Of a DNA stretch of 34,349 nt, positions 5,053 to 34,349 are shown piece by piece (position 1 is the stretch's first letter; the number at the start of each line of letters is the position of its first letter). Both the position numbers and the translations under genes were made by a program. This stretch comes from a bacterium (GTDB lineage: Bacteria > Myxococcota_A > UBA9160 > UBA6930): positions 1-34,349 of the forward strand of contig JAAETT010000244.1 in the NCBI GenBank assembly GCA_024228115.1, written 5' to 3'. The notes below the pieces were generated by a model that was not told where the DNA came from, did no database searches, and was given only the letters and a program-made list of their open reading frames with translations.

Positions 5053-5451
5053 CTAGCGCTTCGAGAACTGGAAACGGGCACGCGCACCGCGCTGCCCGTA
5101 CTTCTTCCGCTCGATCTTCCGCGCATCGCGGGTCAGGAAGCCCGCTTTCTTCAGCGCCGGGCGCTGAGACGGGTCGAGCTTCTCCAACGCGCGGGCAATG
5201 CTGTGGCGCAACGCGCCTGCCTGGCCGGAGACACCGCCGCCATTGATGCTGGCAACGATGTCGTACTGGCCGCCGAGGCCGGTGGTATCGAAGGGCTGAT
5301 GGATCATCTTCACCAGGCTCTCGCGGGGGAAGTACTCCTCGAGGGGCCTGCCATTCACGACGATCGAACCCACGCCGAGCTTCACCCGGACGCGGGCCAC
5401 AGAGGTCTTGCGACGGCCGGTCGCGGCGGTACTGGTCTGCACATCAGTCAA
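5053..5451 (-). CDS. rpsI: 30S ribosomal protein uS9 (S9)
   Basis: The protein has 132 residues, the usual uS9 length. It shows [12 protein letters not shown] near the N-terminus, the GGG-containing middle ([12 protein letters not shown]), and the basic C-terminal tail ending QFSKR that reaches the P-site tRNA. The start is chosen as TTG 5451: a GAGGAG sequence sits 7 nt upstream, and no ATG fits. A GTG nine nucleotides later is the alternative. The first codons overlap the 3' end of rplM by 8 nt, so translation is probably coupled. Confidence 0.95.
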
Positions 5452-5896
5452 GGACGAGCTCCTCGGGCTTTTGAGCCGCGTGGGGATGATCGGGACCGGC
5501 GTAGACCTTGAGCTTCGCGAGCATCTTCCGGCCAAGTGCGTTCTTGGGAATCATGCCGCGGACGGCGTTGCGCACGACCCGGTCCGCATACGGGCCGGAG
5601 AGCAGCTTGTCCGCGGTGATCGATTTCAGGCCGCCCGCCCAACCAGAGTGGCGGTAGTACGTCTTCGCCTCTCGCTTGCGGCCCGTGAGCTTCACCTTCT
5701 CGGCGTTGATCACGATGACGAAATCGCCGGTATCGACGTGGGGCGTGTACGTAGGCTTGTGCTTGCCGCGAAGGATCGTCGCCACGTGGGTCGCGAGACG
5801 GCCAAGCACGACGTCTTTGGCGTCCACGACGAGCCAGCGCCGTTCGACGTCGGCGAGCTTGGCGCTCTGAGTGGCCAGGTGGGCCTGGGCTCCCAT
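5444..5896 (-). CDS. rplM: 50S ribosomal protein uL13 (L13)
   Basis: The protein has 150 residues against about 142 in most bacteria; the extra residues are an N-terminal lead ([13 protein letters not shown]). Family features are [42 protein letters not shown] and the [14 protein letters not shown] segment. AGAGAGGA lies about 9 nt before the ATG. It is the first gene of the rplM-rpsI pair and is preceded by a 204-nt spacer that contains a very long hairpin (5987-6083). Confidence 0.96.
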
Positions 5897-5986: not shown

Positions 5987-6083
5987 GGAAGCGGGGACGT
6001 TCTTTCCGCTGTTTCCGTTGCGGGTTTTCCCGCTCCGCGGGAAAACCCGCAACGGAAACAGCGGAAAGAACGTCCCCGCTTCC
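5987..6083. repeat. 97-nt near-perfect hairpin between truA and rplM
   Basis: Two 47-nt arms (5987-6033 and 6037-6083) are exact reverse complements with a 3-nt loop (TCC). The arm starts GGAAGCGGGGACGTTCTTTC. There is no T run, and a terminator would not need such a long stem. It occupies most of the truA-rplM spacer. A 13-nt core of the arm, AGCGGGGACGTTC, recurs between leuA and leuB (9003-9015). This looks like a REP/BIME-type or small miniature element; that is an inference. Confidence 0.95.
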
Positions 6084-6100: not shown

Positions 6101-6841
6101 TCAAGCATCCACTCGCACCAGGGTCAGGCCCAGGGCGGGTGCGGTGGGGCCCGCGGCCCTGCGCTCTCGGCTGGCGAGCACCTCAGCGGTCCACGAGGGC
6201 ACCTGACGGCGCACGCCCACCTCCAGAAGGGTTCCCACCAGGTTTCTGACCATGTGGCGTAGGAAGCCGTCTCCCTCCGCCTCGATCACCACGGCCTCCC
6301 CAGCGGCCCCCTTCACCTCTAGACGGGCCAGGGTGCGAACCGTATCCGTCACGCTCGAACCCGCCGCCTGGAAGGAAGCGAAATCGTGCCTCCCCAGAAG
6401 GAGTTCGCTGGCCGTCTGCATGGCCGCCAGATCCAAGCGTTGGGGGACGTGGTGCCAACGCCGCAGCCGCAGGGGGGAGCGCCTGGCCGCATTCCAGATC
6501 TGGTAGCGATACAACTTGCCCTTGGCCGCGAAGCGCGGGTTCCACCCGTCCGGGGCGAAGGCCGCATCGGCGACCGCCACATCGGCCGGCAGCTTGGCGT
6601 TCAGGGCGCGGGCCAGGGTCTCGGGGGCGAGATCCGTCGCCAGAGCCGCGGCGACGAGTTGGCCCTCGGCATGAACCCCGGCATCGGTTCGACCGGCGGC
6701 CTTCACCGTGGCCGGCGCGCCTACGATCGCCGTAAGCGCGCCCTCCAGCTCGGCCTGCACGGAGCGATGACCTTCCGGCTGCCGCTGCCAGCCCTCGAAA
6801 TCCGTCCCATCGTATTCGATGGTCAGCCGAAAGGTCGGCAT
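6101..6841 (-). CDS. truA: tRNA pseudouridine(38-40) synthase
   Basis: TruA converts uridines 38-40 of the tRNA anticodon arm to pseudouridine. The protein has 246 residues, as usual. The catalytic Asp53 is in AAGRTDAGVHAEGQ, and later family motifs are present (LYRYQIWN, HDFASFQAAGS, FLRHMVRNLVG). The start ATG 6841 gives MPTFRLTIEYDGT, the standard N-terminus, and comes 5 nt after the stop of the preceding gene. It is the last gene of the ilvC-to-truA run. Confidence 0.97.
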   Translation of the reverse strand: MPTFRLTIEYDGTDFEGWQRQPEGHRSVQAELEGALTAIVGAPATVKAAGRTDAGVHAEGQLVAAALATDLAPETLARALNAKLPADVAVADAAFAPDGWNPRFAAKGKLYRYQIWNAARRSPLRLRRWHHVPQRLDLAAMQTASELLLGRHDFASFQAAGSSVTDTVRTLARLEVKGAAGEAVVIEAEGDGFLRHMVRNLVGTLLEVGVRRQVPSWTAEVLASRERRAAGPTAPALGLTLVRVDA

Positions 6842-34210: not shown

Positions 34211-34349
34211 CTAGTGATATGATTCATAAATAAAGGGCACTATTGGACTATCCACGTTACCCTCGCGGCGAACGGCCAGAGGGGCACGATGCGGGTCGCA
34301 GCCGAGATTCACCTCAGCAAGAGCCAGCGGGCGACGCTTCAGCAATGGT
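34211..34349. repeat. Right copy of the 139-bp perfect inverted repeat
   Basis: This is the exact reverse complement of 1-139. The match ends at 34211; 34210 (g) does not pair with position 140. The unique sequence before it ends in GTAG and joins the repeat at CTAG. Confidence 0.97.
34211..34349 (+). mobile_element. 5' end of the IS630-family-like insertion sequence, right copy
   Basis: This is the same element end as at 1-139, here reading rightward out of the window. It inserted 18 nt after the ppk2 stop codon, so ppk2 itself is intact. Confidence 0.7.
34289..34349 (+). CDS. Transposase N-terminus (IS630-like), partial
   Basis: ATG 34289, with AGAGGGG four nucleotides upstream, opens a frame of 20 codons that runs off the window. 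It is identical to the frame at 61-1 on the minus strand. Confidence 0.6.
   Translation, partial: MRVAAEIHLSKSQRATLQQW

Follow-up and report, generated by a model that had tools for sequence, protein, structure and literature searches.

Anatomy of the hairpin between truA and rplM

The window, that is, the whole stretch of 34,349 nucleotides analysed here, contains rplM, which encodes ribosomal protein L13 and is followed by rpsI (5444..5896, minus strand), and truA, which encodes a tRNA pseudouridine synthase (6101..6841, minus strand; the start was taken as the Met at 6841 and the stop lies at 6101). According to NCBIfam and translation, both genes are transcribed right to left, and the hairpin at 5987..6083 lies between this same-direction pair, 17 nt past the truA stop and 90 nt ahead of the rplM start. 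The first-pass annotation described a 97-nt hairpin with 47-bp perfect arms and a 3-nt loop in this gap, and an inverted-repeat search of the window confirmed it: the arms 5987-6033 and 6037-6083 are complementary at 47/47 positions around a 3-nt loop. When folded as RNA, the hairpin reached -107.3 kcal/mol against a mean of -48.5 (sd 4.4) for shuffled sequences (z -13.4), and 0/200 shuffles were as good; the minus-strand RNA fold gave z -14.8. Among the inverted repeats of ≥20 nt listed in the window, only this hairpin and a pair at the contig ends are 100% complementary. The latter are perfect 139-nt inverted copies (1-139 and 34211-34349), which probably represent either a dispersed repeat or an end effect of the assembly.

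From left to right, the element consists of an outer palindromic extension (5987..5992), a conserved 25-nt module (5993..6017, plus strand), a variable self-complementary spacer (6018..6052) with 16-nt arms at 6018-6033 and 6037-6052, a second, inverted module (6053..6077, minus strand), recognised by its pattern and by the pairing of the halves, and a right outer palindromic extension (6078..6083). By pattern and locus comparison, the left module equals the left terminal repeat of a RAYT/TIRYT gene on contig C653. The spacer, its triloop and the extensions were compared with the orthologous copy in a sister species, G003. The spacer shows two paired changes, the triloop TCC (6034..6036) is AGA, of opposite strand sense, in G003, and the left extension differs from that of G003 yet is complementary in both species.

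No T-run, as required of an intrinsic terminator, follows the 47-bp stem on either strand, and a terminator scan of the element gave only sub-hairpins inside the arms or at the arm edge. An Rfam search of the hairpin returned seven microRNA models, all far under the gathering threshold, and no family.

The repeat family and its transposase gene

The 97-nt sequence matched in 6 of the 60 genomes searched, including the window's own genome (G000; 6.41 Mb in 700 contigs), where about thirty places were matched; the matches in G008 and G031 were weak and partial. The pattern GGGGACGTTCTTTCCGNNGTTTCCG with ≤3 mismatches occurs 50 times in G000, 94 times in G003, which belongs to the same genus, twice in G002, once each in G004 and G008 and 0 times in G001, and its reversed control has 0 occurrences in all six of these genomes. 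G003 was binned from a metagenome and contains a mixture of strains; like it, the remaining genomes are fragmented. When halves were paired in the loci examined, 61 complete elements, all of them inverted dimers, were obtained (22 in G000 and 39 in G003), and 26 half-modules stood alone, six of them in G000 and 16 in G003. The earlier suggestion of a REP/BIME-like or miniature mobile element, with further copies of the arm in the genome, is therefore supported by the dispersed copies and by one Y1 transposase gene with the same module. The alternative, a single copy kept in distant relatives, disagrees with a multicopy family and with a truA-rplM site that was element-free when compared in G004, G002 and G001. 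A conserved cis-acting RNA is rejected, given this absence and the lack of an Rfam family. The hairpin is almost certainly a REPIN-like dimer of TIRtron ends belonging to a dispersed family.

The copies have in common a conserved outer module and a copy-specific spacer that pairs with itself, usually around a 3-nt loop. The loop is AGA, AAA, GGA or GAA on one strand in 45 of the 59 odd-length spacers. The variable dinucleotide of the module is identical in both arms of 59/61 elements, and mismatches within elements amount to 33 of 2,472 pairs (10/1,525 in modules and 23/947 in spacers). A single module forms a weak 8-pair self-stem, in which one G-C pair is lost in variants with AT for CT. L029 and L114, which stand at one and the same site in the two species, form a short subclass: their module-to-module lengths are 66 and 69 nt, and their spacers are the shortest seen. 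At L134 (G002 C36:5907-5997) the modules are paired and the centre is unpaired, possibly a decayed copy.

A REP-associated tyrosine transposase was sought, and one Y1 (IS200-like) gene of RAYT/TIRYT type, bounded by the family module, was found in G000 and G003. In G000 it lies on contig C653, where the module forms perfect terminal inverted repeats of 31 bp starting GGGGACGTTCTTTCCGC; the repeats of the G003 ortholog are 32 bp long with one mismatch. The C653 protein (296 aa) scored 40.3 bits with Y1_Tnp (cut-off 23). Its C-terminal helix-turn-helix lies at the expected position and scored below the curated cut-offs (HTH_23, 22.9 bits against 24.6; Bac_DnaA_C, 17.5 against 31.5), as did the NCBIfam RAYT model NF047646 (63.8 bits, under the cut-off of 80). 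Inspection of the translation shows HVH, a putative HUH-like motif, and a candidate tyrosine region, LVLYIHQNPVRAGLV. A PDB search with the transposase gave only weak HTH matches, to an antitoxin. The gene and its G003 ortholog, which stands at the same place, are 86% identical in amino acids with dN 0.075 and dS 0.297 (NG86), and the gene is evidently under purifying selection.

A protein search at E 1e-20 detected relatives of the transposase in 21/117 genomes, G000 included, with 31 matches, of which 30 correspond to loci. Flanking inverted repeats of >20 nt were read at 25 of these 30 loci, many with a GGGGAC-type core, and those of several relatives read GGGGACAG or GGGGACGG. Convincing flanking repeats were absent at L158, L169, L176 and L177, and the repeat at L167 is doubtful. 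G000 has 11 further Y1_Tnp matches; one of them, on C203, is 43% identical to the cognate protein, and no convincing terminal repeats were found around it.

By its sequence features the transposase locus matches TIRtrons and Y1 subclass 2.1. In the parts of Di Nocera et al. 2013 (PMC3733652) used here, TIRtrons have a RAYT-like gene (TIRYT) with a C-terminal HTH_23/DnaA_C-like domain, sub-threshold in our case, flanked by long inverted repeats that begin with GGGGA, and these repeats form a dispersed family, mostly of inverted dimers, as do our 61 dimers and 26 lone halves. The TIRtron motif GGGGWSAS is matched at 6/8 positions by the module, which reads GGGGACGT; the same parts of that paper describe the motif as common to some TIRs and not all. 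The present study adds arm evolution at the level of orthologs to what these parts describe. For Y1 subclass 2.1, the cited part of Quentin et al. 2018 (PMC6006769) reports no REP-like sequences near the genes, whereas here the terminal repeats form long hairpins.

Orthologous copies and changes in the arms

Flank comparison placed a complete G003 copy at the matching site of 16 of the 22 complete G000 copies, with matched flanks about 83-93% identical over the 16 pairs; four pairs (L006, L015, L026, L030) were matched through one flank only. Among the loci examined, the G000 copies without a complete G003 partner are L003, L004, L005, L007, L008 and L011, and the left flank of L007 matches a half copy in G003. 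The truA-rplM element is found in G000 and G003 (C107) at the same point. G004 has an element orthologous to that on G003 C212, with the module altered on both arms, and is element-free at the truA-rplM and L027 sites; its L028 site carries a short degenerate palindrome, which is maybe a remnant and was not counted as empty. Neither a target-site duplication nor a clean empty site was readable at L027, L028, L010 and L032, which are rearranged or too diverged. The spacer distances between orthologs summed to 96, against a mean of 244 and a minimum of 165 in 20,000 permutations, and by this measure the ortholog spacers are related by descent. Since 16 of 22 copies have a counterpart at the matching G003 site, the window copy is not young; the site comparison shows that it was fixed before the split of G000 and G003, as were the copies at 15 other sites.

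The two arms of a spacer tend to change together. Over the 16 ortholog pairs, 198 spacer pair-columns were compared (only the first 8 spacer columns were counted in pairs of unequal length): 170 were unchanged, in 19 both arms had changed and were complementary again, and 9 were one-sided. In the modules, 396 columns were unchanged and 4 were one-sided. The nine pairs of equal length have 18 differences on the left arm and 21 on the right, and 16 columns, all complementary, are common to both; 2.9 such coincidences were expected, and the simulation maximum was 9, with 0/20,000 runs reaching the observed number. The share of transversions among the paired changes (7/19) is like that in the flanks (12:7 against 993:837, p 0.49), and this speaks against G-U pairs as intermediates. 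Length differs in 7/16 pairs, and both members are still palindromic. The flanks at 11-300 nt are 12.3% different between orthologs, so that the spacers drift at about the pace of the flanks.

Loop positions differ between orthologs in 20/27 cases, against 39/284 for arm positions; of the 8 pairs whose loops consist entirely of purines or of pyrimidines, 5 have switched strand sense. When inverted matches are counted as well, orthologous loops are no nearer to each other than non-orthologous ones (53% vs 54% within one mismatch), and the loop census could also be explained by a preference for a small number of all-purine triloops, with no inversion. The outward extension of the palindrome exceeds that of permuted flanks (sum 201 vs 121 over 60 elements, 0/5,000), and no clear excess was seen at positions 5-14 outside the elements (189 vs 178, p 0.18). 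The palindromic outer flanks may hint at insertion into pre-existing terminator loops.

Two pairs of contigs within G003 have flanks in common. Over about 230 flank bases, C182 and C219 (L099, L113) show four substitutions and one gap, and one paired transversion is the only difference between their spacers. In C200 and C391 (L105, L130), one copy is without the left arm and CGGAA stands at the breakpoints; the arm was apparently deleted between CGGAA repeats. Both differences may stem from the mixture of strains in G003, and misassembly can occur where contigs end in repeats.

Template switching as a probable cause, its rivals and known systems

Taken as a whole, these observations make it quite likely that the hairpin represents a REPIN-like, non-autonomous element, in which two TIRtron terminal repeats stand head to head around a short spacer and whose palindrome is kept mainly by mutation. 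The element at 5987-6083 was presumably spread long ago by the transposase of the TIRtron, its 25-nt modules are presumably conserved in addition for recognition by the transposase, and any effects on the truA-rplM mRNA are probably incidental. The matching of the arms is probably caused mainly by replication template switching between them. As the pattern of changes suggests, replication would stall at the hairpin and the nascent strand would take either the other arm or its sister strand as template. A change in one arm would then become a paired change or revert, small insertions and deletions would be carried into both arms, and a template switch would sometimes invert the loop. The arm and length patterns fit template switching, and the loop pattern fits it less surely. 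The paired changes are unpolarised, so that one-step copying and two fast steps per site are both compatible with them, and nine one-sided spacer changes remain uncorrected, which counts against arm copying. On balance, we incline to the general view that REPIN-like repeats hold long perfect stems by self-editing in replication, not by selection for the hairpin, with stems that drift at about flank pace, remain complementary even in the outer flanks and flip their triloops.

In the cited parts of earlier work, template switching homogenises the arms of yeast inverted repeats and inverts their spacers, including the triloop change TTC to GAA (Abraham and Hazkani-Covo 2021, PMC8604942), has been proposed for RNA stems (Monttinen and Loytynoja 2022, PMC8794818) and has been assayed in E. 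coli quasipalindromes (PMC7202029). Arm homogenisation, changes on both arms and short-loop inversion are probably common to these cases and ours. The cases described in those parts are stems of rRNA and microRNA, inverted repeats in yeast coding sequence and lacZ reporters; ours is a family of mobile elements with many orthologous sites in bacteria. In the open-access literature we found no paper joining REP/REPIN repeats with template switching, and a text search of the literature for the module sequence returned no relevant paper.

The most serious alternative is that compensatory selection acts on the hairpin as RNA (or DNA). Between convergent genes the elements would serve as transcription terminators in both directions or as 3' ends of mRNAs, and mismatches would be purged or compensated singly. 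At least 7 of the 16 ortholog pairs, with gene direction resolved for only part of the 16, have a clearly convergent gene pair around them, whose reading frames end 4-24 nt from the modules, and for this reason RNA-level selection stays a live rival. The cited part of Di Nocera et al. 2013 (PMC3733652) places REPs mostly between unidirectional and convergent genes, and that of Bertels and Rainey (PMC3116915) describes compensatory changes as common in REPIN spacers and attributes them to selection for hairpin formation. However, the window copy lies between same-direction genes and lacks a T-run, transversions make up 7/19 of the paired changes, 7/16 pairs would need matched insertions or deletions, G004 does without the element at two sites (truA-rplM and L027), and Rfam gave only sub-threshold microRNA models. 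We therefore regard such selection as an unlikely main cause.

It is improbable that the arms look corrected because whole hairpins were overwritten by other members of the family through recombination or the transposase. The spacer of the G003 truA-rplM copy (C107) is identical to that at G003 C69:11911, so that copy-to-copy transfer or new insertion must have occurred at least sometimes, and some spacers are nearer to a non-ortholog than to their ortholog. On the other hand, this is the sole identical within-genome pair among the 22 and 39 copies, on which ground we reject copy-to-copy conversion as the main cause, and ortholog spacers are far nearer to each other than expected by chance.

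The perfect arms had been read as a sign of recent origin or of active correction. Active correction is supported by arms that change in step. A young insertion would account for the 47-bp arms and for the element-free sites in G004, G002 and G001, but it is very improbable and is rejected, given the orthologous G003 copy, which is found at the corresponding point of the truA-rplM gap, has 84-88% identity in its flanks and differs by paired changes; the related spacers also argue against independent insertions in G000 and G003. A fold-back artefact of assembly or sequencing is hardly credible: assemblies often break at the elements, several G003 copies sit at contig ends and the window ends in 139-nt inverted repeats, but the flanks on both sides are unique and orthologous in two assemblies, and the element, at 97 nt, is shorter than usual short reads.

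Template switching between the arms, if true, would bear on how paired stem changes, the standard evidence for functional RNA, are read. Arms rewritten from each other would mimic the signal of RNA function at dozens of loci, and paired changes in REPIN-like repeats would be no evidence of such function. It would also link the remark on common paired changes in REPINs to a concrete mutational cause. The 16 orthologous hairpins, with their conserved ends and freer spacers, form a natural assay of bacterial template switching.

Among known repeats, CGTC REPs, with an unpaired CGTC tag, a 20-40 bp stem-loop and no transposase, differ from our family, in which CGTC is base-paired within the long hairpin and the module flanks a transposase gene on both sides. 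MITEs, for example NEMIS, RUP and ERIC, are likewise short, non-coding, intergenic hairpins with inverted ends. These three are known to be tied to other transposases or to none, whereas the ends of the present family match an HUH/Y1 gene. REPINs, as described in the cited part of Bertels and Rainey 2011 (PMC3116915), resemble our family in their pair of conserved inverted ends, their variable spacer that pairs, one long hairpin, a dedicated RAYT gene and paired changes between the arms. In contrast to that description, our family has no GTAG-tagged REP (a conserved GTAG was sought in the element flanks and none was found), its single module is only a weak palindrome, its copies number in tens, not hundreds, and its spacer arms are near fully complementary. 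A transposase of TIRYT type, a subclass said to be without REP-like sequences, here has a population of hairpins.

Two loci of other genomes show variant arrangements. At L133:2001-2312 (G002 C146:17035-17346), about 310 bp lie between inverted modules and resemble the transposase element minus most of the gene, which might be an intermediate between a TIRtron and a short element. At L164 (G005 C30), a related transposase gene has terminal repeats each of which is itself a 60-nt hairpin.
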